DNA of 64,000 bases from Rhodohalobacter sulfatireducens. Its GTDB lineage: Bacteria > Bacteroidota > Rhodothermia > Balneolales > Balneolaceae. A model generated the notes under the pieces. It searched no databases, had not been told where the DNA came from, and saw only the letters and a list, made by a program, of their open reading frames with translations. Of this stretch, positions 15,054 to 34,442 are shown piece after piece (the stretch's first letter is position 1; every line of letters starts with the position of its first letter). A program made the translations under genes and the position numbers. The stretch lies in NCBI RefSeq assembly GCF_022012475.1, contig NZ_JAKLWS010000006.1, forward strand, positions 1-64,000, written 5' to 3'.

Positions 15054-15356
15054 TTAGCCGGGATCTTCTGTTTCTCCAGGCTCTCCCGGGTCACCGCCAC
15101 CTCCACAATCACTGCCACAGAGGACACCACTTAATTCACAGCCACCTAAGGGATTACAAGTAGTCATCCCACAAAATTCAGCAATTGCACAACCTGTTGG
15201 TACTCCGCCAGGTCCTAAACTACACGTCCAGCAAATTGATTGTGTCGATGCATTTGCGTTATTAGCCTCAGGTATCAGAGTGAATGCACTCGTACATAAA
15301 AAGAATGCCACTGATAATAATACAAGAAGGTTACTTCTTTTTGCTTCTGCTTTCAT
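15054..15356 (-). CDS. Sec-exported small Cys-rich protein (NVEALA-like)
   Basis: The preferred start at 15356 has an AAAGGAG ribosome binding site. The protein is 100 residues: a hydrophobic signal peptide (about 9-27), then a mature part with eight cysteines beginning C-x2-C (SICWTCS) and ending in a Gly/Pro/Asp/Glu tail. Size, signal and the PEANNANA segment near the cleavage site recall the NVEALA family of Bacteroidota, which is often encoded beside 6-bladed propeller genes as here. The link is by resemblance, not proof. The upstream gene encodes a CPPC thioredoxin that could oxidise or isomerise its cysteines. Function is unknown. Confidence 0.75.
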   Translation of the reverse strand: MKAEAKRSNLLVLLSVAFFLCTSAFTLIPEANNANASTQSICWTCSLGPGGVPTGCAIAEFCGMTTCNPLGGCELSGVLCGSDCGGGGDPGEPGETEDPG

Positions 15357-15376
15357 GATGATTTCTCCTTTTTTTG

Positions 15377-16006
15377 TTAAGGGTTGTTGGGTGTATGAAA
15401 CGTTTCGTTTAGATCTTGAGAATGTCGAACCGTATTTTCTGCTAACCTGCGTTTCCATAGCTCTACGGTTTCATGAAGCTCTCCTTCCTTATATGCAAGT
15501 TGTGTTACCCCATTCGGGATTACAATATCATGAAATACAACTTGTTCCGTGGGATCCACAAACATTAAATTTTGTTCTGCTTCAAGAAACAGAGAGACTG
15601 CATCTTCCGAACGAATCAATTTGAAGGTAATATCCAGATCAGTCGTTGCAACAAATCGTTCCGCAGCAGTTTTTTCAACATCCACAAATACAAGTGTCGG
15701 TTCAAAAAACAGGGGATCGTTTTTCAAAAGATTGGCATAATCATCCATATTATTCACACAGGGCGGACAAATTTTTGTTGTAACCACCATCAAGGGTAAA
15801 ATTTTGGGCTCGTTTGACTTCTGCTTCATAACCAATTCCTCCATCCTATCTCCTAAAAACTGTAGATCTACAGGCACAGATAAAGAAACCGAGTCGGGAA
15901 GTTCCACAGATGGTTCTATAGTCTCCGCAGGTTGAAGTAAAACCAACATCACAACCCCGAGAAGAATCAGTACAACACTAATGAGATATTTAACTTTGGT
16001 ACTCAC
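15377..16006 (-). CDS. Membrane-anchored thioredoxin-fold protein with CPPC site
   Basis: This 209-residue protein has one N-terminal transmembrane helix (about 8-24), so its body is probably periplasmic. The segment LMVVTTKICPPCVNN places a redox-type Cys80-Pro-Pro-Cys83 after the first strand of a thioredoxin fold, and a later VDPTEQVVFHDIVIP resembles the C-terminal strands. It is likely a thiol-disulfide oxidoreductase. The Cys-rich secreted protein gene follows 20 bases downstream, making that protein a plausible substrate. The gene belongs to the same minus-strand unit as the Cys-rich peptide at 17578. Confidence 0.8.
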   Translation of the reverse strand: MSTKVKYLISVVLILLGVVMLVLLQPAETIEPSVELPDSVSLSVPVDLQFLGDRMEELVMKQKSNEPKILPLMVVTTKICPPCVNNMDDYANLLKNDPLFFEPTLVFVDVEKTAAERFVATTDLDITFKLIRSEDAVSLFLEAEQNLMFVDPTEQVVFHDIVIPNGVTQLAYKEGELHETVELWKRRLAENTVRHSQDLNETFHTPNNP

Positions 16007-16094
16007 AATCTTCGTGGACTCGCGAATTTTTTTATCTGTTGTGATTAAGTGTATTAAAAAATGGACAAAATATTTTACTCAATATTTTGAGTAG

Positions 16095-16393
16095 TCAGTC
16101 TATCTGCTCTTTATAGTATGTATCAGTCCATTTCTTCAAGCTGCCTCTTCCTTTCAGATCCAGCTTTTTACAAATTCGCGCGCGGGTATTCTCAATGGTT
16201 CGGACACTCAAGCAGAACTCTTCCGCAATTTCACGATTGGTTTTCCCTTCTGCTACCTTTTGCAGCACCTCACTCTCACGGCGGCTCAAGAGTTTTAATG
16301 CTTCAAGTAAGACATGGAATTTATTAGTCGCCTGATTAGATTCCGACTCGATCGATTCTTCTTCTCCGTTGAGTTACTATTCGCATCTTTCAT
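16095..16393 (-). pseudogene. GerE/LuxR-type HTH regulator, frameshifted at the 5' end
   Basis: The C-terminal frame reads LLEALKLLSRRESEVLQKVAEG and contains a full GerE helix-turn-helix (SVRTIENTRARICKKL), closely matching the intact regulator at 34167-34442. It has no ATG in its frame. A good ATG at 16393, 11 bases after the upstream propeller stop, opens another frame that meets a GAAGAAGAA run and then ends. A one-base indel in that run would join the two frames into about 98 residues. A TTG at 16289 could still start a 64-residue HTH-only protein. Decay, slippage switching or a sequencing error all remain possible. Confidence 0.6.
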
Positions 16394-16404
16394 GATTCTA
16401 ACTT

Positions 16405-17574
16405 TCAAGACTCAAACATTGTTTTAATCAGGTAATGTTTACCATCTTTTTCCTCTACGATACTGTATAATATGTTCTCTTTGTATCTTGTTACACCTGT
16501 TTCCGCTGGCAGCATAAAATAACTCATTCCATTCTTTTCCTGGTGCAGCCATAACATGACAATATCATCACCGGGGGCCGGCCTAATGCTGAGTATGATA
16601 TGAGTATTATCTGTCCAAATTCCCGAAAGTACTGGTAGTGTTTCAAGGTTCTCCAGATATGCCCAATAATCTTTGTTGGAATCAAAATTGTAAGCACTGT
16701 CAGCGGTAGCCAGGTAATAATCGTTATTAGGGCGTACAGGCAAGTTTGTTTCGTAAATAACAATATCCTCTTCGGTTTGAAAAGGATAGCCTTTTATCAG
16801 CGCCTCGTAATTGTTGGTATAATAGAACATGTTATCATTGTGGCTCCACAAGTAATCATTGCTGTAATCATGGGGGCCATATAATAAAAAATCACCTGTA
16901 TTTCTCACTTTTCGTATCTCTCCTGGAAAAGTCAGTTTTTGCTCAATGGGCTTAAAATTTTTATCCAGTTGATATAATATATATCGATTCTCGGGTGTAT
17001 GAAATCCTTCTGATTCATTGTACAAACCATAAATTCCTTGTTTATTTATAAAAATATTGTATAACGTATGCGACTCCGGAGTTTCATAAACTATGGTATC
17101 CAATAATCTTAGTTCATTATTTTCAACTGCATAAACAGTTATCCGTTTTAAAATTGCATCATGTACGTACATGTGATCATCATTACCTATATGTGTGCCG
17201 GTGATTAGTTCAAACTCGCCAGGTCCTCTTCCAGATCTTCCGGTTACAGATAGAATCTCACCGTCTTCATCCAGAAAAAAGAGCTTTTTTTTTGCATTAT
17301 CTGCTATAATAATACTCTTCCTGTTGTTTAAAATTTCAATCATCACTGGTTGTACAATATCCTCTGGTAATGATATTATATTTTGAGTAATAGATTTTTC
17401 GGTAAGATTCTTCAGTAAATTATTTGTATAAGGATCATCTTGTTCCTTATTTGAAGGAATTTCAAAAGAACAGGAGACAAGCAACGAAAGAAAAAAATAG
17501 GTTAAACCTATATAAACCATCATTTGTATAGGTTTAACCCTTCTAAGACTTATTTGCTTAAATAAGAATGGCAT
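16405..17574 (-). CDS. 6-bladed beta-propeller lipoprotein (3), paired with peptide 17578-17832
   Basis: This protein of up to 389 residues has a lipobox at LLVSC (Cys35, or Cys18 if Met18 at 17523 is the start). The signature SGRGPGEF lies about 65 residues further on, followed by diverged propeller blades. The start is only 3 bases after the peptide gene stop, so the two are almost certainly co-translated. The tight coupling makes this lipoprotein the best candidate partner of that one peptide, for example as receptor, immunity or display factor. None of these roles is shown by the sequence. Confidence 0.83.
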   Translation of the reverse strand: MPFLFKQISLRRVKPIQMMVYIGLTYFFLSLLVSCSFEIPSNKEQDDPYTNNLLKNLTEKSITQNIISLPEDIVQPVMIEILNNRKSIIIADNAKKKLFFLDEDGEILSVTGRSGRGPGEFELITGTHIGNDDHMYVHDAILKRITVYAVENNELRLLDTIVYETPESHTLYNIFINKQGIYGLYNESEGFHTPENRYILYQLDKNFKPIEQKLTFPGEIRKVRNTGDFLLYGPHDYSNDYLWSHNDNMFYYTNNYEALIKGYPFQTEEDIVIYETNLPVRPNNDYYLATADSAYNFDSNKDYWAYLENLETLPVLSGIWTDNTHIILSIRPAPGDDIVMLWLHQEKNGMSYFMLPAETGVTRYKENILYSIVEEKDGKHYLIKTMFES

Positions 17575-17577
17575 AAT

Positions 17578-17832
17578 TTATAACCTATCCATAAATAATT
17601 GCATACCTGCACCGCCTTCAGGGTGGCAAGTTCCATAACAATTACCAGCTTGTTCATCACACACTTCAATCATAGTACGCCCTGCCGGTGATAACAAGCC
17701 TATTGATTGTGCAGCAGCGGTACAAGCCATCCAAATATCGGTGCACTGTTCATAACATCCTGCTGTACCTGCCATAATCTCTTTCATATCACTGCGACTT
17801 AGTACTTGACCTACGGATAATAGATCTTTCAT
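17578..17832 (-). CDS. Cys-rich exported peptide precursor, GG-type leader (A)
   Basis: The 84-residue precursor has the leader LSVGQVLSRSDMKEIMAG and a putative C39 cleavage after Gly22. The core holds six cysteines (26, 30, 37, 58, 65, 69) in a mirror-symmetric pattern, C-x3-C-x6-C, then 20 residues, then C-x6-C-x3-C. Such spacing suits two amphipathic helices stapled by nested disulfides, as in glycocins such as sublancin (C-x6-C twice). Its propeller lipoprotein follows by 3 bases and a conserved palindrome lies 137 bases upstream. The leader resembles GG-Bacteroidales-type precursors. Activity and modification are unknown. Confidence 0.85.
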   Translation of the reverse strand: MKDLLSVGQVLSRSDMKEIMAGTAGCYEQCTDIWMACTAAAQSIGLLSPAGRTMIEVCDEQAGNCYGTCHPEGGAGMQLFMDRL

Positions 17833-17988: not shown

Positions 17989-18023
17989 TATATGCTTTAG
18001 ACACTCATATCTAAAGAAAATTG

Positions 18024-18809
18024 TCACCACCCTTCTATCTCCTCCACCATCTCCTCTTTTGACATCGCATAGAGCCGAAAAACCTTGGAGGCTTTAATAT
18101 CGTCTTGTTTGGGAGAATGAAACTGACTGTTGATTCCTCTTTCATGGGTTAGATGAAATAGTGGCCCGTTGACTCGTTTATATCGGTATCCTAAAATTTT
18201 CCACCTGTTTATTCTTTCACCATCCTCCCTTCCCCAACCATAAAATTTTTCGTTTTCCATCCCTGCTTCAATATATTTTTCTCTGTTAGCAAGGAACCCA
18301 CCACCAACCGGGTTCGGTGAATACATTTCAATCATTTTTCCTTTATTCTCTTGGAGAAGATTGATGTCTTGAGTTTTAAAGTACAGTTCCCTTAGGATGT
18401 GCGTCGTATCAAAGGCTTTCTCTTTATAAGGCGATACAAAATCGGCCTCATCTTTACGTAGCAAACTTATAGACTGAGCCATCTGTTGTATGGGTACAAT
18501 GACATCTGCCTCCCAAACGGCAATAAACTTTGTATCACATTTTTTAACCATTTGATTCATATACTTTGTGTAATGATAGATCGGATCGTAGTCCTCTTCG
18601 AATGTTAACGTAATCTCTTCTTGAAGAAGTTTTTCCAGTATATGATTGTTGTGCTTTGCCGTTTCCATAACATCAATATGGGTATCAAAATGAGAGCGCA
18701 TGTAATCAACCACCATTAGCAAATTTTCCAGGCGGTCCATCGAATCAACTCTGATACGAATTAGGAAAGTAACGTCCTTAAAATTTAATTTGGTTTCTCG
18801 TGATTCCAT
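18024..18809 (-). CDS. Putative glycosyltransferase, galactosyltransferase-like C-terminal domain (1)
   Basis: This 261-residue cytoplasmic protein has a GT-A-type layout. FKDVTFLIRIRVDSMDR opens the first strand, AVWEADVIVP sits at the metal-binding position, and GWGREDGERINR followed by FHLTHERG matches the C-terminal domain of the GT7 galactosyltransferase superfamily. The usual DxD is EAD here. It is a paralogue of the gene upstream, which overlaps it by 25 bases. Within a peptide export locus it may glycosylate a Cys-rich peptide, but a polysaccharide role cannot be excluded. No lipid-carrier or polymerase genes accompany it. Confidence 0.8.
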   Translation of the reverse strand: MESRETKLNFKDVTFLIRIRVDSMDRLENLLMVVDYMRSHFDTHIDVMETAKHNNHILEKLLQEEITLTFEEDYDPIYHYTKYMNQMVKKCDTKFIAVWEADVIVPIQQMAQSISLLRKDEADFVSPYKEKAFDTTHILRELYFKTQDINLLQENKGKMIEMYSPNPVGGGFLANREKYIEAGMENEKFYGWGREDGERINRWKILGYRYKRVNGPLFHLTHERGINSQFHSPKQDDIKASKVFRLYAMSKEEMVEEIEGW

Positions 18810-19585
18810 CTGTTTACATATTCTTCTAATTCCTGGTTAGACATTGCAAGAATTTTATAGAGTTCTGAACGGGCAATTTCTTCTTTTTTATTCGTATAAA
18901 ATGTGCTGTTTTTCCCTCTTTGATGCGTTAAATGATAGATTACACCGTCAAGTCGTTTGTATCTGTATCCTAATAATTCCCACCGAATGATGCGCTCATC
19001 ATCTTCAGCCCCCCACCCATAAAATCTTTCATTTTCCATACCGGCTTCAAAATATGTTTCCTTGTTTGCGAAAAAAGCACCACCGACAGAAGGGTTTGGA
19101 GAACGAGTTGGAATCATTTTGTTTTGGTTTTCTTGCAATACCTGGATGTCTCTTTTCTTAAGATAAAGCTCTCTAAGTAACTCTGTAGTGTCCAAAGCAA
19201 CAGCTTTATAAGGAGTTATAAAATCAACCTCTTGTTTTCGAAGCAGCTCAACTGATTCAATCATTTGATCTGGAGGTGCAAGTACATCAGCATCCCATAT
19301 GGATAAGTATGGAGTTTGGCACTTTTGAGCCATCCTATTTAGGTATTTGGTCTGATGAAATACTGGATCATAATCCTCAATGCAAGTGACCAACACGTCG
19401 TTTGGAAGGAGCTTCTCCAATATCCTGTTCTTATAATTTCTGACCTCCAGGACATGAATATTAGTTTTAAAATGATCAGATAAAAAATCTATAACCATCA
19501 TACAGTTTTCGATCCGATCCATCGAATCCACTTTTATGCGGATCAGAAACGTAACATCTTTAAAATCTACTCTGTTATCCATCAT
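18785..19585 (-). CDS. Putative glycosyltransferase, galactosyltransferase-like C-terminal domain (2)
   Basis: This 266-residue paralogue of the next gene keeps a canonical DAD at the metal site (SIWDADVLAP) and GWGAEDDERIIR near residue 205 with YHLTHQRG after it. The N-terminal strand motif (FKDVTFLIRIKVDSMDR) is nearly identical in both. The stop overlaps the downstream start by 25 bases, so both are made together. The shared core with different middle sections suggests two transferases acting on different acceptors or in sequence. It follows the LanC-like gene after a 212-base gap with a hairpin. Confidence 0.82.
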   Translation of the reverse strand: MMDNRVDFKDVTFLIRIKVDSMDRIENCMMVIDFLSDHFKTNIHVLEVRNYKNRILEKLLPNDVLVTCIEDYDPVFHQTKYLNRMAQKCQTPYLSIWDADVLAPPDQMIESVELLRKQEVDFITPYKAVALDTTELLRELYLKKRDIQVLQENQNKMIPTRSPNPSVGGAFFANKETYFEAGMENERFYGWGAEDDERIIRWELLGYRYKRLDGVIYHLTHQRGKNSTFYTNKKEEIARSELYKILAMSNQELEEYVNRWNHEKPN

Positions 19586-19797: not shown

Positions 19798-20865
19798 TCA
19801 CGATATGAACTCCTTTTTTGTTAATTCCAGAAGTTCCAATCCTATACCGGCATGGCCGAACAGCAAGCCCCAGCTTTTCCTTTGAACATCCCCGTTTTTC
19901 AAATCTTGCCAATATTCTGAAACTGTAATTTTTCTGATGAGCTCCTCTTGATTAAATACAAATTTTTCCTCCCTGGCAACTTGATACATCCTGCGGGCTA
20001 TCAAAGAAATACCCGTTACTCCATTTAAAAAAAGAAGGTTTTTATTTTTTAATTCATTTTGCAAGATATGCGCTACCTGCAAATTCTCTTGTAGAAGGTC
20101 AGCATGTTTTCTCCAATCAACCAATGAAATTTCTTTCAATAGTGCTTCAATGCTATACAACAAGTATAATCGGTTGCTTAATAGACGCGGGTAAAGAGAC
20201 AACACAAGAGGGGTTAAATGATCTATAATTCTATCAATTTTAGCATTATAGATATTCAGTACTCTGATTTTACCAAGCAAGATCAAACAAATCGGAAGAT
20301 CCCAAGTAATATCAAATGAGAATGGTTCCTCTGTTGAAAACTTTCTGTTTTCAATGTTATCACCAAGCCGGTTGACCAATTCAATCAACAAACGTTTAAA
20401 AATAAAGCTATCGGTGCTTTCATCATGAATATCTTTTCCTTCTAAACGCGATAAGATATAGAGGATATATCCCATGATACCTTCTAATATTCCTGAGGGC
20501 AGCTCATCAGCCGATACAAGGTGACGGTATATTTTATCATCCACAACGGATAAGACATCATCCGTTTCAGCCTCCACAAAGCCCTGTTGGACCAAATATT
20601 CTATCCCCCAGGCAATTCCAGCTAATCCGTCTTCAAAGTTCGGAGGCGTACGGCCTTTACTTACCTCTTGATATACGTCATCTATGAGAGTTTCCGCAAT
20701 CTCTTGGTGCTTACCATCAGATGTATTCTTCGCAAGATGAAAAAAATATATACTTATTCCCATCTTGCCATTTAACAAACCGTTGTTATTCATTTTGTCA
20801 GCATCGTGAAGCAATATGGTATTGATGATCTCTAATTTGTCCCGGACTTCATCTGGTTTGTTCAT
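19798..20865 (-). CDS. LanC-like protein lacking visible zinc ligands
   Basis: This 355-residue protein has the repeated Gly-rich helix-pair motifs of the lanthionine synthetase C-like fold: NGKMGISIYFFHLA, EDGLAGIAWGIEYL, LEGIMGYILYIL, LNGVTGISLIAR and FGHAGIGLELL. Classical LanC enzymes bind zinc through two Cys and a Cys-His pair. This protein has a single cysteine, in PICLIL, so thioether cyclisation by the known mechanism is unlikely. It overlaps the HlyD gene by 4 bases. Relatives in Bacteroidota accompany peptide clusters without a lanthionine dehydratase, as here. Its role may be structural or in precursor handling. Confidence 0.82.
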   Translation of the reverse strand: MNKPDEVRDKLEIINTILLHDADKMNNNGLLNGKMGISIYFFHLAKNTSDGKHQEIAETLIDDVYQEVSKGRTPPNFEDGLAGIAWGIEYLVQQGFVEAETDDVLSVVDDKIYRHLVSADELPSGILEGIMGYILYILSRLEGKDIHDESTDSFIFKRLLIELVNRLGDNIENRKFSTEEPFSFDITWDLPICLILLGKIRVLNIYNAKIDRIIDHLTPLVLSLYPRLLSNRLYLLYSIEALLKEISLVDWRKHADLLQENLQVAHILQNELKNKNLLFLNGVTGISLIARRMYQVAREEKFVFNQEELIRKITVSEYWQDLKNGDVQRKSWGLLFGHAGIGLELLELTKKEFIS

Positions 20866-22202
20866 CGTAACTCTTTTGTCATGTTATTATATACTCTTTC
20901 AAGCAATCTCATATCCTGCGTAATGATCTCTGCCTGACCTGTCATTCCATTTCGTGGTGGTATTTCTTGCCCATAACTGGTGGTGAGACCGTCAGGAAAC
21001 TGAACTTTGGCAAAGAATAAGCTGTCCTGGACTGGAAATTCAGAAAAGTATTCTACCTGACCATAGACGGAACCAAATTCGTGGTAAGGATATCCACTAA
21101 AACGGACCAATACCTGCTGGCCCTCTTCAATTTTTCCAAAGGAGCGCTGCGAAACGATCAGCTCTCCAAAGTATTGGGTATTATCCGGCTGGATGTAAAA
21201 CAGATCCTGTCCTGTTGAGAGAGTCTGATTTTCCTGGATCACACCTGCGTGCACAACCTCACCCTCAAAAGGGGCTATGAGAAGATAGGTCTGTTTCCAT
21301 TCATCAATTGCACTTTTCATAATATTGACTGCCTGCAGGAAAACAGAGCGCTGTTCCGCCATTCGTTTTTCGAGTTCAATGATCTCTTTTTCTTTTGCCG
21401 TCTGCGATAGTTGGTTGTTAATGATGGCCGATTCGCTCTGCTCAAGCGGCAGCCGGCGGGCTGACAACTCGCTCTCCGCCCTTGCCAGTTCAACAGGGGC
21501 TATGAAATCGTTCTCTGCAAGTTGTTTTTGCATTTCATACTCCCTATTGGCTAACTCAAAATCTCTCTGTTGAATCTGTTTTTGTTCATATATTTTTTCG
21601 AGAAGTTGTTGTGTATACGTCAACTCCTGCTCTAAAATCTGCCTTTGCTGCTCATAAAATCCTCCGGGTAAAAAATCTCTGAACTCTCTGTAGGATTGCT
21701 CAAAATTCTGGAAAGCCGTTTGCAGCTCTCCCAGATTTCTAAATGGAGTAAGACCATTCTCCATAGTCTGGAATCGAGAAAGTTTACCATCCAACAACCA
21801 GGTTCGCATGCTGTCCACCTCATTCGACAACCGGATCACTTCTTCATGGCTCGCCGTGCTCTCCATCCACCCCAAAACCTCCCCTTCCATAACTTGACTG
21901 TTATTTTGTGCTATAATTCGTACTATTTTTCCATTAGTGCGTGCTTTTAAAGTCTGTGGTGCATGAATCGCCGTTAATCGTATTGGGGTTTGAATCACTT
22001 CGGGATATTCGATGATGGAAGCTGAAAGAAGAACCATCCCTAATACACCGAAAAAGGCGGTAATCCCCCAGCGAATCAGCCAATGCGGCGGCCGGCCGAT
22101 AATCTCCTGCACCTCCTCACTGCGAACATCGAGTTCGGACCAGTTGGTGGTGGGTTCAGATTTGGGTGGTATGTTGTTTGACGAATCGTTGTTCATGTTC
22201 AT
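20862..22202 (-). CDS. HlyD-family periplasmic adaptor of peptide exporter
   Basis: The 446-residue protein has a cytoplasmic N-terminus, one membrane helix (about 45-65 in this numbering), a biotinyl-lipoyl-like segment (RIIAQNNSQVMEGEVLGW), a long alpha-hairpin coiled coil (about 120-300), the second lipoyl half (APFEGEVVHAGVIQ) and a C-terminal beta domain. This is the MFP adaptor that links a C39-type ABC exporter to the outer membrane. The frame extends to 22229, but the extra residues are encoded by a palindromic repeat, so ATG 22202 is preferred. It is translationally coupled to the LanC-like gene. Confidence 0.88.
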   Translation of the reverse strand: MNMNNDSSNNIPPKSEPTTNWSELDVRSEEVQEIIGRPPHWLIRWGITAFFGVLGMVLLSASIIEYPEVIQTPIRLTAIHAPQTLKARTNGKIVRIIAQNNSQVMEGEVLGWMESTASHEEVIRLSNEVDSMRTWLLDGKLSRFQTMENGLTPFRNLGELQTAFQNFEQSYREFRDFLPGGFYEQQRQILEQELTYTQQLLEKIYEQKQIQQRDFELANREYEMQKQLAENDFIAPVELARAESELSARRLPLEQSESAIINNQLSQTAKEKEIIELEKRMAEQRSVFLQAVNIMKSAIDEWKQTYLLIAPFEGEVVHAGVIQENQTLSTGQDLFYIQPDNTQYFGELIVSQRSFGKIEEGQQVLVRFSGYPYHEFGSVYGQVEYFSEFPVQDSLFFAKVQFPDGLTTSYGQEIPPRNGMTGQAEIITQDMRLLERVYNNMTKELR

Positions 22203-22208
22203 ATGTAC

Positions 22209-22369
22209 GCCGGACAGCCTGTCCGGCACCTCCGAATTATGACAAAATTATTTGTTTTATGTTTTGCAAGTAATGTCTCCTAAGGAGAGTATTACCTTAA
22301 TCAAGCTGCTGCCATACACAAATACCACAAGTACATCAACGCTCACAAGAGCCGGACAAGCTGTCCGGC
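22209..22369. repeat. Pair of GCCGGACA palindromes in inverted arrangement
   Basis: Two nearly identical palindromes, GCCGGACAGCCTGTCCGGC at 22209-22227 and GCCGGACAAGCTGTCCGGC at 22351-22369, lie between the exporter and adaptor genes. Their outer flanks GTAC/GTAC mirror each other, so the 161-base segment is bounded by inverted repeats. The inside has no reading frame of note. It may be a small non-autonomous repeat or paired transcript-stabilising hairpins. Confidence 0.6.
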
Positions 22370-24160: not shown

Positions 24161-24199
24161 CCGGTTTCCGGTTTTCCCTTCTAAGTCATAAAACTTCGG

Positions 24200-24718: not shown

Positions 24719-25570
24719 TTAATGATGATAAATTCTTGTGGGGCTGATTGAAAATACATCCGGAAGAGGATCAGGAACATTTTTGGGCTTAAAAACCTTT
24801 TTAAAATAGATCATATGATATAGCATGATTTCATAGGCATTCTTGTAAAACAACTTGCCTTTTTCCCACTTCAGCCTGCCGGGGAGCCCTTCTATCACAT
24901 GAAAATCGAAATAGGTTTTTAACTCATTATTTTTCTCAAGTCTCTTAACCAAATGCATCATACTTTCTACTTCATGTTTTCTTTTTGGATATGTATTCAG
25001 ATCCGTAAATTCTCCCCACTGAAAATTGGTTTCATCAAAACAGTAATGAATGGAGCTGCTGAGAACCTTTCTGTAGTCTTTACTCCTCATGAAAAGAGTA
25101 TTCATCTTTTCGTTATTTTCGAGAAGAAGGAAATAGCCTGATATAAAATCGTGCCGGACGTTCACTAATTCATGGTTTTCCAGCACTTCGTCCGTAATAA
25201 ACTGCCGAATGTCTCCAAAAATAACGTCAATATCTCCGTGACCCCAGAAATCATACCCTTCAACAAGTTCAGGGAAGAGATATCCGTAAGCCGGTTTAAA
25301 ATCGCAAAGTTTATATGCTTCCCCGATGTTGGTTGCAAATCCCAGCTTTTGGGTAGCTTTACGGTTAATCTCATTCATCTCTTGATGGATCAGTCTAACA
25401 TTTTCCGGCAAAGAGGATGACCAACTTTGGTCGTCAGTGATAATGAAAAAATCGATTGTAGAATTAAACTTGCAAGTATGAACAAAATAGTTGAAATACC
25501 ACGGGAGTTTTCCAAAAAAACAAATCAGGATTGCTATTTTCTTTTTATGTTCAATTGGATCAGAAAACAT
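24719..25570 (-). CDS. DUF6625-like putative glycosyltransferase
   Basis: This 283-residue protein starts with KKIAILICFFGKLPWYFNYF and a TCKFNSTIDFFIITDD strand, and has a GHGDIDVIFGD segment whose DID suits a GT-A metal site. The pattern fits the DUF6625 family, usually found in glycan synthesis loci. It lies 23 bases after a propeller gene and in the same frame as the C39 domain, which starts 57 bases downstream. Two truncated copies of its N-terminus remain at 27742-27853 and 30511-30610, so it was once part of each duplicated module. It may modify the exported peptides. Confidence 0.72.
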   Translation of the reverse strand: MFSDPIEHKKKIAILICFFGKLPWYFNYFVHTCKFNSTIDFFIITDDQSWSSSLPENVRLIHQEMNEINRKATQKLGFATNIGEAYKLCDFKPAYGYLFPELVEGYDFWGHGDIDVIFGDIRQFITDEVLENHELVNVRHDFISGYFLLLENNEKMNTLFMRSKDYRKVLSSSIHYCFDETNFQWGEFTDLNTYPKRKHEVESMMHLVKRLEKNNELKTYFDFHVIEGLPGRLKWEKGKLFYKNAYEIMLYHMIYFKKVFKPKNVPDPLPDVFSISPTRIYHH

Positions 25571-27058: not shown

Positions 27059-27376
27059 TTACACACAACAAGAACAGTCTGTAGAAGTACCCCAAGATGC
27101 AGAAACCAATACGCCACCCGGACAGTTAGAACCAGCAGTAGCTAGTGTTTGCTGGCAGACCGTCATTGGAGATGTACCATTGGCATGTGCACAAGAACAT
27201 GCTTGATAAACACAATACCCAAACCCTCCTTGCAACGGATCGTAATCCTGCACCTGACAGATAACAGTGTCAGTCGTTGCATTATCACCACATCCTGATC
27301 CAGCCATTATCTCCCTCATTTCTGAGCGGTTGAGGGTTGTACTAATTGCACCAATATCGATCTTTTTTCGATTCAT
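27059..27376 (-). CDS. Cys-rich exported peptide precursor, GG-type leader (B)
   Basis: The 105-residue precursor starts MNRKKIDIGAISTTLNRSEM and has the REIMAG cleavage motif at residues 21-26. The core holds ten cysteines, ending D-C-S-C-C-V, and is rich in Gly, Thr and Ser. A strong AAAGGAG site lies 6 bases before the ATG. The 5' leader region resembles those of peptides C and D, including a GGGACAAG block about 65 bases upstream, and the palindromic site lies 245 bases upstream. Leader identity with C and D contrasts with unrelated cores, as in RiPP or bacteriocin families that diversify the core. Confidence 0.85.
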   Translation of the reverse strand: MNRKKIDIGAISTTLNRSEMREIMAGSGCGDNATTDTVICQVQDYDPLQGGFGYCVYQACSCAHANGTSPMTVCQQTLATAGSNCPGGVLVSASWGTSTDCSCCV

Positions 27377-27741: not shown

Positions 27742-27853
27742 TTAAGTAAAATATACAGTGGGGTTGTATTTACAGGTATGTGCAAAATAGTGGAAATACC
27801 AGGGGAGTTTTCCAAAGAAACAAATCAGGAGGGTTATACTTTTACCTCTGTTA
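27742..27853 (-). pseudogene. Remnant of DUF6625-like gene (N-terminal fragment)
   Basis: The minus strand reads ITLLICFFGKLPWYFHYF, then AHTCKYNPTVYFT and a stop at 27742-27744. This matches the first 40 residues of the intact gene at 24719-25570 at both protein and DNA level. There is no start codon in the expected place and the rest of the gene is missing. It lies just upstream of palindromic site 2, and a sister fragment with the same end lies before site 3. Both fragments share the same break, so the truncation predates duplication. Confidence 0.8.
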
Positions 27854-27971
27854 TTTTTAGATGGGTTCATTTATGCACACTATTTATTAACCGATACAAC
27901 AGAACCATCTTAAATCGTTTACTTTTACAATGAATTGCATCATTTTAAATTCATTTTTTAACAGTTTCATC

Positions 27972-28319
27972 TCAATCTTGTATCTCATAATGTGCTGTAG
28001 CCCGATCTCCGTTGTTCCCGCTGCCGGTTTGCAGCCAAATGGCCAAGCTCACATTGACCGGCCAAGCGGCCATGGTGATGGTCGGCGGGACCTGCCTTAC
28101 CAGTTGCTCCCACTTCAGTTTAGCTCTGATGGTCCGGAAACCGATGTTCTCGGCCACCTCGCTGATACTCAGCAGCGATATCCCCTCACGGTTGATCCCG
28201 CTGCGGCCCAGCAGGATCTCCATCTTGTAGCTGCGTCCATAATGCTTTGCGACCATGTGGAAGCAAGTGGACCCGCAGTCCATAGCGTCATGTTGGCGAT
28301 AATAGAGAAACTTGATCAT
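27972..28319 (-). pseudogene. Truncated C39 peptidase remnant fused to a propeller tail
   Basis: The first 73 residues (MIKFLYYRQHDAMDCGSTC to KLKWEQL, 28101-28319) match the C39 domain at 24200-24661, including the catalytic Cys. Similarity then stops before the His-Asp part, at a GC-richer insert of about 90 bases. At 27961-28012 another frame reads TEIGLQHIMRYKIEM, the typical C-terminus of a propeller gene. So pieces of two gene types are joined, 22 bases after the intact propeller at 28342. It cannot encode an active protease and is evidence of an ancestral longer module. Confidence 0.8.
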
Positions 28320-28341
28320 ATCGAAATAGACCTTTATGAAG

Positions 28342-29589
28342 TTATCGTTCGGTCAGATTGATGCTGTATTTGACAACTTTGCTTTCCCAGCCTTCCGGAT
28401 CATCGCTGCCCTTTGAATCAAAAGATTTTGTATAAAGGTACCCGTTTTGAATATCGCAGATCGCTTCATTTTCGGGGGCGATAATCTTTGCAAGAAGCTC
28501 TCCTGATTCTCCGAGCATCCACCACTCGCTTGTCTCCGTGTCTACTGCAACGGTCACCCAAATTCTGTTTTCGTCATCGATTCTCATATTGTGTAAAACC
28601 GGGGCCGTTTCCGGAATCTCCACATCAGCCTCCTCCAATGCATTTTTGATGGCGAGTTGGGAATGACCTCCAGGCAACCGAACAGAATCTACATCAAACG
28701 GGGGGCCCATTACCGGGTAATAAATTGCGAATTGGTAGATGCCCTCCGCATCATATTTCTTGATCAAAAAGTCTTCGGTCTGGGAGACCGTATATATCGC
28801 ATTATCATGAGATAAAACATATAAAGATCGCCCCATAAGTGACAACTGCATACGCAACGGTAACAATGTATTGCCCCGATTCTCATTTACAATGTAAAAT
28901 GGGGATGGCAATTCTATCAGCGGCTCAGGGTTTAAAACATTTCCCTCCGTGTCAACCAGCATGAATTTTGTATTCGCGGTTCTGCCGGAACCGGTCGGTA
29001 GGCCACTGAATATGGCCAACAGATTGCCGTCACTTCTGGCTCGGAAATCGCTCAATTTCATGTCCCGGACCGCCTCAAGATCTCTGACGTTCCAATCTTG
29101 AAGGTTTGTTGTTTTTTCAAATGAGTAATCATCGGCGGAAAAAAAACTAAGACGTTTGGTTGATTGGTCCTGCAGAAAAACTCTGCCTGCATTGATTTGA
29201 AAGTTGTTTGATACGAATTCGTATTCACCGGGTCCTCTTCCGGATCGGCCAATTTGCATGCGGTACGACCCGTCGGGATTATAGACATGAAGCTCGGTTT
29301 TAAAATCGTTATTCTGTCCCCTGATAATCACCCGGTCATTGTCATCCACTGCACAACTGGTAATAGTTATCAAATAGGGTTCTCTCGGATCATTTCCCCC
29401 ACCAAAAGACTGCTCTTGGACAAGATCCACCTCATAGGCCGGTTCCGAGTCGGCCGGATATACCGTGAGGCTGTCAAGCTCCTGAATATGTTCTGCTTTT
29501 TCTGATCCAGAATTATTGGAGCATTGAATAAGGTATAGACATGATAGTATGCTCAATAATAATATTTGGGAATATCGCAAGTATTGCAT
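28342..29589 (-). CDS. 6-bladed beta-propeller lipoprotein (5), paired with peptide 29740-30042
   Basis: This 415-residue lipoprotein (lipobox YLIQC, Cys23) reads LDSLTVYPADSEPAYEVDLV after the anchor, with the signature GRSGRGPGEYEF near residue 115. The C-terminus is diverged (WESKVVKYSINL) compared with the ETGLQ ending of its relatives. The last strand WMLGESGELLAKIIAPENE is conserved. It follows its peptide gene by 150 bases. The middle blades differ strongly from neighbouring propellers, as would fit a specific partner. A C39 remnant follows at once, where the other modules have or had the glycosyltransferase. Confidence 0.87.
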   Translation of the reverse strand: MQYLRYSQILLLSILSCLYLIQCSNNSGSEKAEHIQELDSLTVYPADSEPAYEVDLVQEQSFGGGNDPREPYLITITSCAVDDNDRVIIRGQNNDFKTELHVYNPDGSYRMQIGRSGRGPGEYEFVSNNFQINAGRVFLQDQSTKRLSFFSADDYSFEKTTNLQDWNVRDLEAVRDMKLSDFRARSDGNLLAIFSGLPTGSGRTANTKFMLVDTEGNVLNPEPLIELPSPFYIVNENRGNTLLPLRMQLSLMGRSLYVLSHDNAIYTVSQTEDFLIKKYDAEGIYQFAIYYPVMGPPFDVDSVRLPGGHSQLAIKNALEEADVEIPETAPVLHNMRIDDENRIWVTVAVDTETSEWWMLGESGELLAKIIAPENEAICDIQNGYLYTKSFDSKGSDDPEGWESKVVKYSINLTER

Positions 29590-29739: not shown

Positions 29740-30042
29740 TTATCCATAGTTTATACCGCACTGTGCTATTGCCTGCGCCCATAATTGGTTTACTTGTTGT
29801 ACACATTCCATCTGACATGAAGGAGTATTACACTCAGCCATACAAGCGGCATTCAAACAATTATAAAAATAACTAGCAGTAGAACAACCACTATATATGC
29901 ATCCTGGTGCAGTTCCACAACCACAACCGCCAGTACCATCGCCACCGCCTCCAATGTCACCTGAACCCGCCATAATCTCCTTCATTTCTGAGCGGCTAAG
30001 GGCTGAACTGATTGCGCCAATATTGATCTTTTTACGCTTCAT
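29740..30042 (-). CDS. Cys-rich exported peptide precursor, GG-type leader (C)
   Basis: The 100-residue precursor starts MKRKKINIGAISSALSRSEM and continues KEIMAGSG. A glycine-rich spacer (DIGGGGDGTGG) leads to a core with ten cysteines. The middle has C-x4-C-x3-C-x4-C-x3-C (residues 62-80), a twin C-x3-C arrangement that would staple two helices. The AAAGGAGATAAAG ribosome binding site is strong. The upstream region, including palindromic site 3 and the 5' leader, is a duplicate of that of peptide B. The core is unrelated in sequence to A, B and D. Confidence 0.86.
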   Translation of the reverse strand: MKRKKINIGAISSALSRSEMKEIMAGSGDIGGGGDGTGGCGCGTAPGCIYSGCSTASYFYNCLNAACMAECNTPSCQMECVQQVNQLWAQAIAQCGINYG

Positions 30043-30351: not shown

Positions 30352-30510
30352 TTGCATGTAAGCTTCATATTATATGATAAGCCAATTCTCGTACCTTCTT
30401 TCACTAAACCCTCGACTTTTGGGTGTTAATCTGATCGATCTTTTCCTTCTCTTGATAGATGACATATTTTATCTTTAGGCAATAGGTTGGACCAACTTCG
30501 ATCATCAATT

Positions 30511-30610
30511 TTAAGTAAAATACACGATAGGATTATATTTACAGGTATGAACATAATAGTGGAAATACCAGGGAAGCTTTCCAAAGAGGCAAAACAGGAT
30601 GGCTATTTAC
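30511..30610 (-). pseudogene. Remnant of DUF6625-like gene (second N-terminal fragment)
   Basis: The minus strand reads IAILFCLFGKLPWYFHYY, then VHTCKYNPIVYFT and a stop at 30511-30513. This is the same fragment, with the same end point, as the remnant at 27742-27853, and it matches the start of the intact gene at 24719-25570. It lies 57 bases after the stop of the propeller at 30667, the position where the intact module has its glycosyltransferase gene. It shows that tandem copies of a peptide, propeller and transferase module have lost their third gene. Confidence 0.8.
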
Positions 30611-30666: not shown

Positions 30667-31857
30667 TTACTTTATCTCAAAACGGTATTTTACTATCTGC
30701 TGAACTCCTGTTTCCTTATCAGTTTCACGGGCGTATACATATTCATCTTTGACAACCTCAATGTGGCGGTCTCGCGGCCAAATGAACTTTGCTAGCAGTT
30801 TGCCGGATCTCTTAAAGATCCACCATTCATATAAGTCTGGATCGTCTAAAAAAGTGGATATCCAAATACGATTTTCATCATCCACTTTTAGAAAATCAAA
30901 AGCCGGCCATGTTGTGGGTAGCTCGTCAGTACGAATCGCATTCCTCGTCTGCTCATCATCGTATTGAATCAAGACATCTCTTTCCGTTAGTTTAACTTTC
31001 GAATAAGGATAGAAGAAAGCACGTTGATATGTTCCATTCTCATCATAAAACTTAAACAACATTTCTTCAGTCCGGCCATAAACTAATTGTCCTTTGTAAT
31101 AGTCAAATTGTGTTCCCGGTTTGTAAGGCACGTTAAACATCACTAGACCCTCATTTACAAGTACCCTCCCTCCCCAATCGAATGAAAATATTTCATGTTC
31201 TAGATAGTTTCCCTCTTTAGGATTAAAAGTGGAGATCTCATAGGTACGGCTCTCAACATTATCTGCAGAAGAAACGCCCTCATCGCTGAAAATAATCAGG
31301 TAATTGCCATCTGAACGAATATAAAAGTTGGTCACCCTGTAAAACAAACCTTGTTGACTTGTACGGTTTTTCCATAAAGGTTTATTATCACTCTCTTGGT
31401 CAATTGAAATATTAATATCCCGCTCATGTTCCAGATTATTAAGATCAAAAACTGAAATCTTCTGAAGTTGATAATCCAATGCATGTAGATAGTTTCCACT
31501 GATCCTGATCACCCAAATCATTTGAAACTCACCTGGCCCTCTGCCTTCCCTACCAAGACTTCCGAGATATGAGCCATCGGTATTATAAACGTGAATGGTC
31601 TTAGTCATAAAATCTGCAATATAAACGCGACCATTCTCATCCACAGCCGTACTTCTAACAATGGAACCTAAGAATACTGCCTCTGTTTCCCCAAATGAGA
31701 TTTCTGATACAAAGGTAACATCAAAAAGTGGCTCTGCTTCTTGAGAATAAACACTTAAATTATCTAAACCTTGTAGCCGTTCTGGGATATTGGAAGATTT
31801 AGGGTGCGAGCAACTTATTAAAATAAATAAGAAAATGTATCCTAAATTTATTTTCAT
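30667..31857 (-). CDS. 6-bladed beta-propeller lipoprotein (6), paired with peptide 32018-32263
   Basis: This 396-residue lipoprotein (LFILISC, Cys16) has LDNLSVYSQEAEPLFDVTF at the mature start, blade NGRVYIADFMTKTIHVYNTDGSY, signature LGREGRGPGEF and C-terminal ETGVQQIVKYRFEI. It is most like the propeller at 44324 in the array downstream (shared IRSDGNYLIIFSDEGVSSAD and SFDWGGRVLVN patterns), which links the peptide locus to the propeller-only array. It follows peptide D by 160 bases and is the last gene of the unit that begins with the VKOR-thioredoxin fusion. Confidence 0.88.
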   Translation of the reverse strand: MKINLGYIFLFILISCSHPKSSNIPERLQGLDNLSVYSQEAEPLFDVTFVSEISFGETEAVFLGSIVRSTAVDENGRVYIADFMTKTIHVYNTDGSYLGSLGREGRGPGEFQMIWVIRISGNYLHALDYQLQKISVFDLNNLEHERDINISIDQESDNKPLWKNRTSQQGLFYRVTNFYIRSDGNYLIIFSDEGVSSADNVESRTYEISTFNPKEGNYLEHEIFSFDWGGRVLVNEGLVMFNVPYKPGTQFDYYKGQLVYGRTEEMLFKFYDENGTYQRAFFYPYSKVKLTERDVLIQYDDEQTRNAIRTDELPTTWPAFDFLKVDDENRIWISTFLDDPDLYEWWIFKRSGKLLAKFIWPRDRHIEVVKDEYVYARETDKETGVQQIVKYRFEIK

Positions 31858-32017: not shown

Positions 32018-32263
32018 CTAACCTATACAAGTTGATGATCCTGACGTATCACATCCGTAGTCGGGATATCCCCTATCTGTACATTTGGTTTTACCATGCT
32101 CTCCAGTTCCAACCTGATAACAGTGTATACCACCGATGCATATATAACAGCCCCCCGTACCACCACCGCCTCCACCTTGATCTGAACCAGCCATTATCTT
32201 CTTCATTTCCGATCGATTAAGGGTCTTTGAAATTGCACCAATATTGATCTTTTTTCGTTTCAT
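32018..32263 (-). CDS. Cys-rich exported peptide precursor, GG-type leader (D)
   Basis: The 81-residue precursor has MKRKKINIGAISKTLNRSEM and the KKIMAGS cleavage motif, then a Gly6 spacer and a core with six cysteines (39, 42, 48, 61, 71, 79) starting C-x2-C. The core is hydrophilic, with several Gly, Thr, Tyr and His. A strong AAGGAGATAAA ribosome binding site precedes it. It lies 145 bases after the VKOR-thioredoxin gene in the same orientation with no palindromic site between, so it is probably co-transcribed with the protein best suited to oxidise it. Confidence 0.86.
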   Translation of the reverse strand: MKRKKINIGAISKTLNRSEMKKIMAGSDQGGGGGGTGGCYICIGGIHCYQVGTGEHGKTKCTDRGYPDYGCDTSGSSTCIG

Positions 32264-32408
32264 TTTTATCTCCTTGTTTGGTTTAGTTTATAGCCTGTTT
32301 TACCCACACTCATAATGACACGTAGGCTGGGACAAGCCATTTGAACCCTTTTGCGTGGTAAATTCGCTTTAAGAAGCGTTTTAACCTGTAAAACTGTTTG
32401 CATATTTA

Positions 32409-34058
32409 TTATCCGACTGAAACTGTTTGCTGCTTTTGATCCATTTTTTCCCAAGAAGTCAACTGTTCGATCAATGCGGGCATTAAATTTTTAATATCAT
32501 CTATTCTGTAACCTTTCGGCAACTTGCAACTATTAATAAAAAACGTAGGTGTTATATGAATTTCTTCTCGTTTAAACCAATCGGCATGCAAATCAATAAT
32601 ATTAATATTCTGATCATAACTAACTCGTTCACTCGATTCAATTGGGTGCCTCTTTTTGAAGTCGTCCAGTCTTACAAAATTATACATAGAATCGTACCAG
32701 TTTTGTAACAACCAAACAGTTCTATCAGATTGATTCTTTTGACCATAGATATTCTGCAGCCATACATTCAAAATGTATCCACCCGGACTATTAATCTCAT
32801 CACCTTTTTTATAATTATCCAGGAATAAACGAATCGACAGATTCACAGTATCCGGCCATCGCTCCACCAGTTGAACAGCTTTCTCAAAACCATCTTTACA
32901 AGGGCCACATCCAAGGCTGGCCGCCATTATAATCTGTATTGGAGTATCCGGTTTTCCAATAAGAAGCTCCTTTTCAAATGGAGAGGTATCTACCCGTTTT
33001 TCCTTACTGAGCAGTTGTGTAAAAACTTTCGGGGAATATTTCACCCTGTTAGCTGCAATCTCCGCCGCAGCAGCCTCACTGCCCTCCTCCATTCGGTTTT
33101 TCAAAAGAAATTCAAGAGAAGTGACAGCCACCAACAAAAGTATGATCTGAGTGATAGCCCAAAACCCTGTATCACTGAATTCAAAAACATTCGTTGTGTA
33201 CATCCATCCGAAAAGAACAGCTTGTACCAAGAATACCGCTCCAACCAACAGACAGAGTCTGCACCAGGATTTCAGCTTCATAGCCTGCACATATAAGGAA
33301 TACCCAACGGCTGGGAGGGAAAGCATAACAGAAACAAACAAAACGGATAAAATGGATGTGACTTCACTTCCCACTGGAAGCCAGATACCGGCTACAATCA
33401 GTTGAAAAGTAAAGTAGCTCAGCACGGCATCCGAAAGCTTGAAGCGACCAAACAGGGTGGCTTCGTCAGAGGTCAGAACACGATCGCAATTTATGTTTTG
33501 TCCTGCGTTGCAAAACGACTCAACAATATCATATCGAATCCCAATATCTTTTGCCGTTAATAGAAGTCCAAGGACGGTTCCCGAAAGAGATGTGGCCAGT
33601 AGTATTATATTGTACCAGGTAAAATGCTGCGTAAGCAACATTCCAAGAAACAAAAGAGCAGACAGCCCGAGAATAACAAACCCCCATTTTGCCGACTTTT
33701 CTCTTGATAGATACTCCTGGTGCTCTTTGTCTTTTGTTATATCACCATCCTCTGCATAAAGTATGACCCCGTCCCAATCGTCCAAATCAGAGCGATGTTC
33801 TTCCAGCTCTTTTTGGTTACGAATGAGAAGCAGTTGTCCCTGTCCTCTCTTCAGATGCAGCACGAATGGAATCGGAAGGTTTTCGAGATCCTCCTTTTGA
33901 ACCCTTGCTACCGCGTGCTCAATGCCAAACCGCTCCAATGTATCGGCAACGCTCAGAATGGACGGATACTCCGGGTGAGAGGCCACACATTTTCGGAAAT
34001 ATGTTTTGGAAACGGGAATGTCGAGAAGTTTCAAGTAGTCAAGAAGTACCTGTTCCAT
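32409..34058 (-). CDS. C39-like / VKOR / thioredoxin three-domain membrane oxidoreductase
   Basis: From Met at 34058 the protein has 549 residues. Residues 1-100 resemble a degenerate C39-like domain (FGIEHAVARVQKEDLENLPIPFVLHL) without the catalytic triad. Residues 125-315 are a VKOR-type membrane domain with Cys183, Cys191 and the redox pair Cys266-x2-Cys269 (SWCRLC). The C-terminal part is a DsbA/thioredoxin-like domain with Cys384-GP-Cys387. Such proteins make disulfides in exported proteins using quinone. It opens the unit containing peptide D, so oxidative folding of Cys-rich peptides is the most direct reading. The longer frame to 34133 overlaps the palindromic site and is unlikely. 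Confidence 0.88.
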   Translation of the reverse strand: MEQVLLDYLKLLDIPVSKTYFRKCVASHPEYPSILSVADTLERFGIEHAVARVQKEDLENLPIPFVLHLKRGQGQLLLIRNQKELEEHRSDLDDWDGVILYAEDGDITKDKEHQEYLSREKSAKWGFVILGLSALLFLGMLLTQHFTWYNIILLATSLSGTVLGLLLTAKDIGIRYDIVESFCNAGQNINCDRVLTSDEATLFGRFKLSDAVLSYFTFQLIVAGIWLPVGSEVTSILSVLFVSVMLSLPAVGYSLYVQAMKLKSWCRLCLLVGAVFLVQAVLFGWMYTTNVFEFSDTGFWAITQIILLLVAVTSLEFLLKNRMEEGSEAAAAEIAANRVKYSPKVFTQLLSKEKRVDTSPFEKELLIGKPDTPIQIIMAASLGCGPCKDGFEKAVQLVERWPDTVNLSIRLFLDNYKKGDEINSPGGYILNVWLQNIYGQKNQSDRTVWLLQNWYDSMYNFVRLDDFKKRHPIESSERVSYDQNINIIDLHADWFKREEIHITPTFFINSCKLPKGYRIDDIKNLMPALIEQLTSWEKMDQKQQTVSVG

Positions 34059-34131
34059 ATTCAGTCCATTCAGAATATAAATTATTAAACAATGATCTGA
34101 ATAGATGCTAATAAATGAACAGCAGTTTTGC

Positions 34132-34151
34132 ACCCCTATTATTTTAGGGGT
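34132..34151 (-). promoter_or_regulatory. Palindromic operator-like site 4
   Basis: The palindrome ACCCCTATTATTTTAGGGGT is identical to sites 2 and 3. It lies 15 bases after the stop of the GerE-type regulator and 73 bases before the VKOR-thioredoxin start. In minus orientation it is followed by GCAAAACTGCTGTTCATTTA, like the other sites in its spacing of T-rich sequence. Its position beside a regulator gene makes that regulator the first candidate to bind all four sites. Confidence 0.68.
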
Positions 34152-34166
34152 TACAATAAGCCGTTA

Positions 34167-34442
34167 TTACTGAGATCTTATCCATTTTCTCAGGCGGCCA
34201 CTTCCATTTTTCTTTAACTTTTTGCCAATATTAGTGATATGATTCTCAACCGTCTTCTTGCTAAGAAAAAGTTCATCGGCTATCTGCCGACAGGATTTAT
34301 CCTCCTTGATCTTCCCCAGCACTTCGCATTCACGGCGGCTCAAGCGTTTATAAGCTTCGAGTAAGGTTAGGGGAGATGATTGTTGGTTGGTTGGTTGGTT
34401 GGTTGTTCTTTCCCGATGCGGCTCTGTTTGATGAGTCGGCAT
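34167..34442 (-). CDS. Stand-alone GerE/LuxR-type HTH regulator with tetranucleotide repeat
   Basis: This 91-residue protein consists of a low-complexity N-terminus and a GerE helix-turn-helix (RLSRRECEVLGKIKEDKS, then LSKKTVENHITNIGKKL). No receiver or ligand domain is present. The coding sequence near residues 13-21 runs through (TTGG)5 at 34383-34402 on the plus strand, read as TTNQPTNQQ. A second ATG at 34452 opens a different frame through the same repeat. Changes in repeat number would switch frames, so expression may be phase-variable. It precedes palindromic site 4 and the VKOR gene and is a paralogue of the frameshifted regulator at 16095. Confidence 0.8.
   Translation of the reverse strand: MPTHQTEPHRERTTNQPTNQQSSPLTLLEAYKRLSRRECEVLGKIKEDKSCRQIADELFLSKKTVENHITNIGKKLKKNGSGRLRKWIRSQ

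Follow-up and report, generated by a model that had tools for sequence, protein, structure and literature searches.

We describe a locus at positions 15054-34442 of a 64,000 nt stretch of contig NZ_JAKLWS010000006.1 from Rhodohalobacter sulfatireducens (family Balneolaceae); the whole stretch is referred to here as the window. On its gene content, the locus produces, exports and probably oxidatively folds Cys-rich peptides with double-glycine (GG) leaders, via a C39-ABC exporter and a VKOR-thioredoxin fusion, and each of the four GG precursor genes in the window is followed directly by a gene for a propeller lipoprotein. Gene order and co-divergence in related loci make it well supported that peptide and propeller are cognate pairs. 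A preliminary description of the region had proposed that disulfide-rich peptides are made, exported and oxidised here with propellers as their dedicated partners, and the comparisons below support that proposal.

Precursors were defined solely by their leader pattern, which identified 49 in 20 Balneolaceae loci. The next gene (within 1500 bases) encodes a DUF5128-type propeller for 42 of the 49, compared with 51 of 208 other genes (Fisher p = 2e-15). This count was obtained with genes ordered by midpoint; an automatic next-gene call gave 39/49, because the long called starts of three propellers (in G003, G021b and G109) overlap the precursor. With a narrower leader pattern, 37 of 48 precursors precede a propeller. 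The seven unpaired precursors are three in G119, one each in G313a, G313b and G430, and a tandem precursor in G109. The preliminary description had proposed co-occurrence of VKOR, C39-ABC and propeller genes as a check. Besides the adjacency above, VKOR fusion and C39-ABC were found in one and the same set of 6 out of 28 genus genomes, with ABC exporters 80-87% identical.

Cores and their partner propellers diverge together. Across 37 pairs, core similarity is correlated with propeller similarity (Mantel r = 0.47, p = 1e-4, reached by 0 of 9,999 permutations), and the p value is again 1e-4 when partners are shuffled only within genomes, though the loci share ancestry, so the adjacency and co-divergence tests overstate independence. 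Of 14 pairs of similar cores from different genomes (score >0.3), 13 have the partner propeller as the top-ranked one, in one case with a single candidate. In the closest trio (G003, G021 and G024), the cores are 90-97% identical and under purifying selection (ratio of non-synonymous to synonymous substitution 0.03-0.16), the propellers are 63-74% identical and the leaders are different. The propeller of this near-invariant core was found at ≥70% identity in three of 28 genus genomes, the three in which the core had been seen; this search used the propeller, and the core itself was not searched for genome-wide.

The leaders of the four window precursors are 22, 26, 26 and 26 residues long and share the motif RS[DE]M[KR].IMAG. 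The precursors had no match to any NCBIfam model at E 1, and the peptides had no Pfam match. After cores shorter than 30 residues (G325 and G221) were dropped, here and from the Mantel test, 47 Balneolaceae cores of 36-79 aa remained. They contain 13.4% Cys, compared with 0.40% in window open reading frames (ORFs) of ≥250 aa, and only 0.8% Lys. Their net charge ranges from -10 to 0 (mean -5.4), to which halophilic hosts could contribute; as 47 of 47 are at or below zero, a membrane-active cationic peptide was ruled out. Of the 47 cores, 43 have an even number of Cys, as do 37 of the 40 left once similar cores are removed (p = 2e-8 against one half, with no control set of unrelated Cys-rich ORFs); the odd counts are those of all three G441 cores and one G119 core. 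As the numbers are even, complete disulfide pairing appears favoured over thioethers or S-sugars.

Every gene that the preliminary description had listed at 15054-34442 was recovered in its place, on the minus strand, from ORFs and Pfam or NCBIfam matches. From high to low coordinate, the genes and gene remnants are:

34167..34442, minus strand: GerE2, a small GerE/LuxR-type helix-turn-helix regulator with homologues upstream of VKOR in several relatives
32409..34133 (likely start 34058), minus strand: fusion of a C39-like domain without catalytic Cys, VKOR and a DsbA/ScsC-like thioredoxin (Pfam VKOR E 4.8e-16, Thioredoxin_4)
32018..32263, minus strand: GG precursor 4 (GG4), core 55 aa with 6 Cys (leader alignment, Cys count)
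30667..31857, minus strand: PROP6, propeller lipoprotein, partner of GG4 (DUF5128 2.5e-12; AlphaFold)
30366..30606, minus strand: remnant of a GT3/DUF6625 gene after PROP6 (tblastn identity 73%, E 5e-9, q 0.04-0.31)
29740..30042, minus strand: GG precursor 3 (GG3), core 74 aa with 10 Cys (leader alignment, Cys count)
28342..29589, minus strand: PROP5, propeller lipoprotein, partner of GG3 (DUF5128 1.7e-11)
28077..28325, minus strand: 5' remnant of a C39-ABC gene directly after PROP5 (q 0.00-0.12, 72% identity, E 9e-30)
27748..27870, minus strand: 5' remnant of a GT3/DUF6625 gene after the C39 remnant (q 0.00-0.15, E 2e-10)
27059..27376, minus strand: GG precursor 2 (GG2), core 79 aa with 10 Cys (leader alignment, Cys count)
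25594..26883, minus strand: PROP4, propeller lipoprotein, partner of GG2 (DUF5128 1.3e-15)
24719..25570, minus strand: GT3, DUF6625 protein, putatively glycosyltransferase-like (Pfam 2e-59)
24200..24661, minus strand: C39 peptidase part of C39-ABC, with TAG in frame at its end and the usual start codon missing (Pfam E 1.9e-35)
22433..24160, minus strand: ABC exporter part of C39-ABC (Pfam/NCBIfam)
20862..22229, minus strand: HlyD-type adaptor (TIGR01843 6.8e-28)
19798..20865, minus strand: LanC-like protein without zinc ligands (E 8.3e-12)
18785..19585, minus strand: GT2, glycosyltransferase-like (Pfam Glyco_transf_7C)
18024..18809, minus strand: GT1, glycosyltransferase-like (Pfam Glyco_transf_7C)
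17578..17832, minus strand: GG precursor 1 (GG1), core 62 aa with 6 Cys (leader alignment, Cys count)
16405..17574, minus strand: PROP3, propeller lipoprotein, partner of GG1 (DUF5128 4.4e-10)
16095..16289, minus strand: GerE1, head of a second (Sec) module (GerE 4.1e-14)
15377..16006, minus strand: membrane-anchored CPPC thioredoxin-like protein of the Sec module (sequence reading; no Pfam match)
15054..15359 (ORF called 15054-15458; likely start ~15359), minus strand: Sec-type Cys-rich peptide, 8 Cys after a signal-like segment
13741..14958, minus strand: PROP2, propeller lipoprotein (DUF5128 4.6e-9)
12440..13687, minus strand: PROP1, propeller lipoprotein (DUF5128 2.1e-7)

The loci were searched for broken pieces of the conserved genes, with 'before a precursor' taken as within 132 bases. 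All six fragments directly before a precursor are 3' ends (three of HlyD and three of VKOR), and four of these also sit after the propeller of the preceding pair. All nine interior fragments that lie after a propeller and not directly before a precursor are 5' parts (eight of C39 and one of GT3). However, two of the nine come from decayed loci (G221 and G325) in which no other C39 copy was seen, and therefore reflect loss rather than displacement, and the 3' fragment of G021c is 77 bases from a contig end. The counts exclude contig-end fragments, distant ABC paralogues (G022 2147 and G313a 33375), a VKOR fragment with no precursor after it (G015 6676), a C39 fragment (G430 8568), the GT3 5' part that follows the C39 remnant at 27748 in the window, and 5' VKOR fragments in G022, G221 and G430. 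In the window, the C39 5' remnant ends the GG3-PROP5 pair and a GT3 remnant ends the GG4-PROP6 pair. A precursor comes next after VKOR in 14 of 18 steps and after HlyD in 5 of 11, while the gene after a propeller can be C39-ABC or GT3. Having 3' ends before precursors and 5' parts after propellers is the polarity expected of recombination at a slot that displaces the old pair: a new pair would enter by recombination in flanking VKOR, HlyD or C39, and the old pair would be pushed aside. From these traces, the pairs look as if they have been swapped in and out like cassettes.

A GG-type leader and a C39-ABC exporter are both present (leader alignment, Pfam/NCBIfam matches), but the exporter copy in the window is interrupted. 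The C39 peptidase and ABC exporter, described previously as separate genes, are a single ORF of 729-738 aa in relatives and in the window are one gene split by an in-frame TAG. At the interruption (24160-24320), the linker contains ~26 extra residues and the TAG; the usual start codon is missing. Apart from this, neither half is broken, and the ABC half shares 82-84% identity with full-length relatives; this copy may be a working split gene, a case of recent loss or decay, or an assembly fault. The interrupting stretch matched only itself in the R. sulfatireducens genome and the window, and a mobile repeat is therefore an unlikely cause.

In the AlphaFold model of the VKOR fusion (predicted local distance difference test, pLDDT, 91.5), residues 145-290 resemble VKOR (Z ~14) and residues ~350-535 resemble ScsC/DsbA (Z up to 15.2). 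Across 42 VKOR fusion sequences, six Cys are conserved without exception (C183, C191, C266, C269, C384 and C387), which we read as two VKOR pairs and a CGPC motif. Over its N-terminal 110 residues, the fusion matches the C39 domain of the exporters (hhalign 97.1%), without the catalytic Cys. As the structural comparison barely covered residues 1-144, with no C39 chain among the matches, the C39-like assignment comes solely from this profile comparison. In Fodinibius halophilus the VKOR fusion is split by an in-frame stop (L029 10001-11620; L108 4502-6121), and there are signs of decay in some loci. DUF6734 proteins with a 'QSFWS' start recur beside the VKOR fusion in Cyclobacteriaceae and Flavobacteriaceae (L033 14016-15662; L044 11533-12423), accompanied in several Flavobacteriaceae loci by a 208-residue protein.

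The zinc ligands of LanC are a Cys and a Cys-His pair. None of seven aligned LanC-like proteins has a conserved Cys or His ligand motif; thioether formation by the LanC-like protein is therefore unlikely, and a lanthipeptide link is not supported. Among window genes at 12.4-34.4 kb, the main ones scanned with Pfam, NCBIfam or both, no Ser/Thr dehydratase family was found. Glycosyltransferase-like genes were seen in the window, G022, G430 and G268 (GT12/GT3 models and size listing) and not in the other fetched Balneolaceae loci, several of which are short contigs, so 'perhaps glycosylated' is not supported as a general trait. The Pfam family of GT3, DUF6625, does not state a glycosyltransferase function, which was the reading of the preliminary description.

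The VKOR fusion was found in 14 of 92 family genomes; in a phylum-wide sample of 394 genomes, 41 have it at E ≤1e-20, some of these matches being partial. An alignment scan of genome contigs returned 23 named loci with the fusion, including ones from Fodinibius roseus (strain DSM 21986, L028), Fodinibius halophilus, Cyclobacterium, Aquimarina, Maribacter and Flagellimonas, at least five of which are the same contigs as genus or family genomes; a single-sequence scan of the contigs had found none. As read from the listing, C39-ABC, C39 or a matching ABC stretch accompanies VKOR in 13 of the 23, and a leader-like Cys ORF, by a loose pattern, is present in 17. C39-ABC and HlyD lie ≤8 kb from VKOR in 9 of 19 further phylum-sample loci, also read from the listing. 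The exporter, VKOR fusion and GG peptide are therefore a chassis that is spread across Bacteroidota. Outside Balneolaceae, the gene after the GG precursor encodes a TlpA-like thioredoxin protein in four of five cases scanned (L033, L036, L124 and L130; L039 had no match). By its position, this protein is a candidate alternative partner to the propeller in some Bacteroidota.

The chassis (C39 exporter, HlyD, thiol oxidase and GG peptide) is of a known kind, while the partner arrangement is, as far as we are aware, new. Novelty of the exporter and oxidase part is not supported, in view of the bacteroidetocins (class IIf; PMC6671954) and the leaders of NF047798. Bacteroidetocins likewise come from Bacteroidota and combine a GG leader, a Cys-containing peptide, a C39-ABC exporter and a dedicated thiol oxidoreductase, in our locus the VKOR-thioredoxin fusion. 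They differ in being encoded by a four-gene unit with a five-transmembrane protein and one somewhat basic 42-residue peptide with a leader of 15-16 aa; no immunity gene was found for them and a propeller is not mentioned (PMC6671954). Their target is BamA (PMC8546649). The loci described here have an HlyD adaptor, the VKOR-thioredoxin-C39-like fusion and several acidic cores of 36-79 residues, mostly with a propeller. The short leader and somewhat basic core of ~42 residues are not matched, leaders in the window being 22-26 residues long and core charge -10 to 0, and the five-transmembrane protein gene was not recognised among the listed genes, though no search was aimed at it. In other families, some of the precursors that neighbour this VKOR fusion match the NF047798 'leader_Chryseo' bacteriocin-like or TIGR04149 leaders, one above the NF047798 cut-off and the rest, including weak TIGR04149 matches, below the cut-offs.

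Orphan toxin-immunity modules of contact-dependent inhibition (CDI) and Rhs systems are a second parallel (PMC3150448). They too have a variable effector with an adjacent partner that diverges with it, which fits the co-divergence seen here, and displaced pairs with remnants of conserved genes, which fits the fragments, with G221, G325 and G021c as exceptions. Here, a small exported peptide takes the place of a C-terminal toxin domain, and the partner is a lipoprotein propeller. Sublancin-type glycocins share the C39 exporter, thiol oxidoreductases and a glycosyltransferase (PMC12457901), whereas here the glycosyltransferases are accessory and Cys numbers are even as a rule.

The own genome has 15 DUF5128 hits, 14 of which lie at 13-56 kb of the window. 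Propellers are thus present at 15054-34442 as first described, but the array reaches far beyond, with ten of the 14 hits outside that range (at 13-15 and 39-56 kb). The distal part has no recognised Cys-rich peptides and is interleaved with an RND gene and others:

38632..55938, minus strand: further propeller array, with propeller ORFs at 38632-39768, 40576-41658 (frame broken by a stop codon), 41698-42912, 42975-44282, 44324-45529, 45556-46827, 52549-53619 and 54757-55938

The AlphaFold model of PROP6 (pLDDT 90) is a confident propeller fold that matches NHL propellers, BF0058, a DUF4221 protein and BtuG. A lipobox is present in 78 of 94 propellers, and a precursor lies directly upstream of 42 of 93, so that many have no peptide. 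In the literature searched, of which subscription papers were not part and some sources were accessible only in part, no paper was seen that connects propellers to peptides of this kind or assigns a function to the DUF5128/TolB-like propellers beside them. Two large ORFs that look RND-like by sequence (34813-37974 and 49234-52314) lie amid the propeller arrays. Similar ORFs were seen beside propeller or thioredoxin-peptide loci in G022, G021, G020, G002, G008, G268, G325, G109 and G313, and the chromosomal site may therefore be conserved among relatives.

For the role of the pairs, we favour, with roughly even confidence, antagonism between relatives, in which the propeller would be a cognate immunity lipoprotein and propellers without a peptide would be orphan immunity genes. 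During export, C39 would cleave the precursor after MAG/GG. Disulfides would be formed in the periplasm by the thioredoxin domain, for which VKOR would be the re-oxidant. The leader may be held by the inactive C39-like domain of the fusion, and the propeller would bind its cognate peptide in the envelope. Several points weigh against this, in addition to the shared ancestry of the loci, the null used for Cys parity, the odd Cys counts and the exceptions among the fragments given above. At ~400 residues the propeller is large for an immunity protein, and we know of no propeller immunity protein. DUF5128 propellers occur in 17 of 22 genus genomes without the system, and no non-producer genus genome has a close copy of the propeller of the near-invariant core; with one propeller searched in 28 genus genomes and a best non-producer match of 46%, orphan protection of non-producers has no support. 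In the 40 kb regions of G119 (three precursors) and G313a, VKOR and C39-ABC lie beside the precursors and there is no propeller. A propeller beside the precursor is therefore, on these gene orders, usual and not obligatory. The preliminary description had named leader homologues without a link to C39 exporters or propellers as telling against it, and this was borne out in small part, by the missing propellers of these two regions. All 47 cores have a charge of 0 or below, unlike the somewhat basic bacteroidetocins, whose producers showed no immunity (PMC6671954).

Co-divergence and cassette traces fit any cognate pair, so the peptide could instead be a signal or identity tag and the propeller its surface sensor or binder. 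This ligand-receptor or kin-recognition role would account for acidic, Lys-poor cores that are unlike membrane-active peptides; the ligand-binding surface lipoprotein BtuG is among the structural neighbours of the propeller, and small GerE regulators are present in several loci. We nevertheless consider it rather unlikely, as toxin systems are the best-known setting for displaced orphan modules (PMC3150448) and no sensor kinase was recognised beside the propellers, although no search was aimed at kinases. Less probable again is a role of the propeller in maturation, as a chaperone or in display, in which it would help its peptide to fold or tether it to the outer membrane, the pair forming one extracellular device. 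One propeller per peptide as a rule, the frequent lipobox and the TlpA-like proteins that take the same position outside Balneolaceae agree with such a role, but it sits poorly with the three precursors of G119, which have no propeller in 40 kb, and with the many propellers that have no peptide. That an ordinary bacteroidetocin-like cluster, with the same exporter, oxidase and GG-peptide logic (PMC6671954), merely lies in a propeller-rich region is improbable, even with nearly all of the genome's propellers in the window: adjacency is far above the local background and co-divergence holds against within-genome shuffles, which rules out chance clustering of propellers as the sole cause. A lanthipeptide or glycocin cluster, with Cys in thioether rings or S-sugars, we regard as barely credible. 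The window does contain LanC-like and glycosyltransferase genes, and glycocin clusters combine a C39 exporter, thioredoxin-like proteins and a glycosyltransferase (PMC12457901); against this, the LanC-like proteins lack zinc ligands, no dehydratase was found, Cys numbers are even, and in most other Balneolaceae loci no LanC-like or glycosyltransferase genes were seen.

The GerE, thioredoxin and Sec peptide genes at one end of the locus (15054-16289) appear to form a separate, parallel module. The CPPC thioredoxin and GerE regulator at 15-16 kb are present as first described, but belong to this module and not to the C39/VKOR system. The thioredoxin-like protein has matches in 11 of 89 family genomes, nine of which lack the VKOR fusion. 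In seven of eight fetched loci (the two weakest matches, G253 and G141, are not among the eight), its gene is followed by a small signal-peptide-like Cys-rich ORF and then a propeller gene. These ORFs have, as listed, 8, 8, 12, 12, 12, 6 and 10 Cys, the same peptide occurring in two loci; in the eighth (L150), a propeller follows the thioredoxin-like gene and no peptide was flagged.

NVEALA peptides (PF14055) of Bacteroidales are a further likeness, in that a gene for a small secreted Cys-containing peptide directly precedes a TolB_like/DUF5128 propeller gene. They differ in having a signal-peptide-like rather than a GG leader, and four fetched NVEALA stretches had no C39 or VKOR model hits. 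Of 24 loci, 23 were examined and 14 have a motif-bearing ORF. The gene that follows this ORF had sufficient length for scanning in 12 of the 14 cases, with TolB_like matches in nine and DUF5128 matches in five. A profile of these propellers matches the Balneolaceae propellers at 99.0%. In one Bacteroidales genome (G282), NVEALA peptide genes lie directly upstream of propeller genes at L137 and L139. The PF14055 model has no match in the own genome, and NVEALA was not found in the literature searched, subscription papers lying outside the search. From the Sec-module and NVEALA loci, the peptide-propeller pairing is therefore, as judged from gene order, wider than the C39 route. Tentatively, there may be a recognition code across Bacteroidota in which secreted peptides locked by disulfides are exchanged as cassettes with their cognate six-bladed propeller lipoproteins and served by at least three export routes, namely C39/VKOR with a GG leader, Sec with a membrane thioredoxin, and that of the NVEALA peptides in Bacteroidales.

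DUF5128/TolB-like propeller lipoproteins are common in Bacteroidota, and their pairing with peptides gives a concrete hypothesis for their ligands as well as a route to many unannotated disulfide-rich peptides. If the pairs are true antagonists with their immunity proteins, they would be a polymorphic weapon with an unusual partner fold. Should the recognition code hold, peptide-propeller pairs would be the basis of a polymorphic toxin-immunity or kin-recognition system of a new class.

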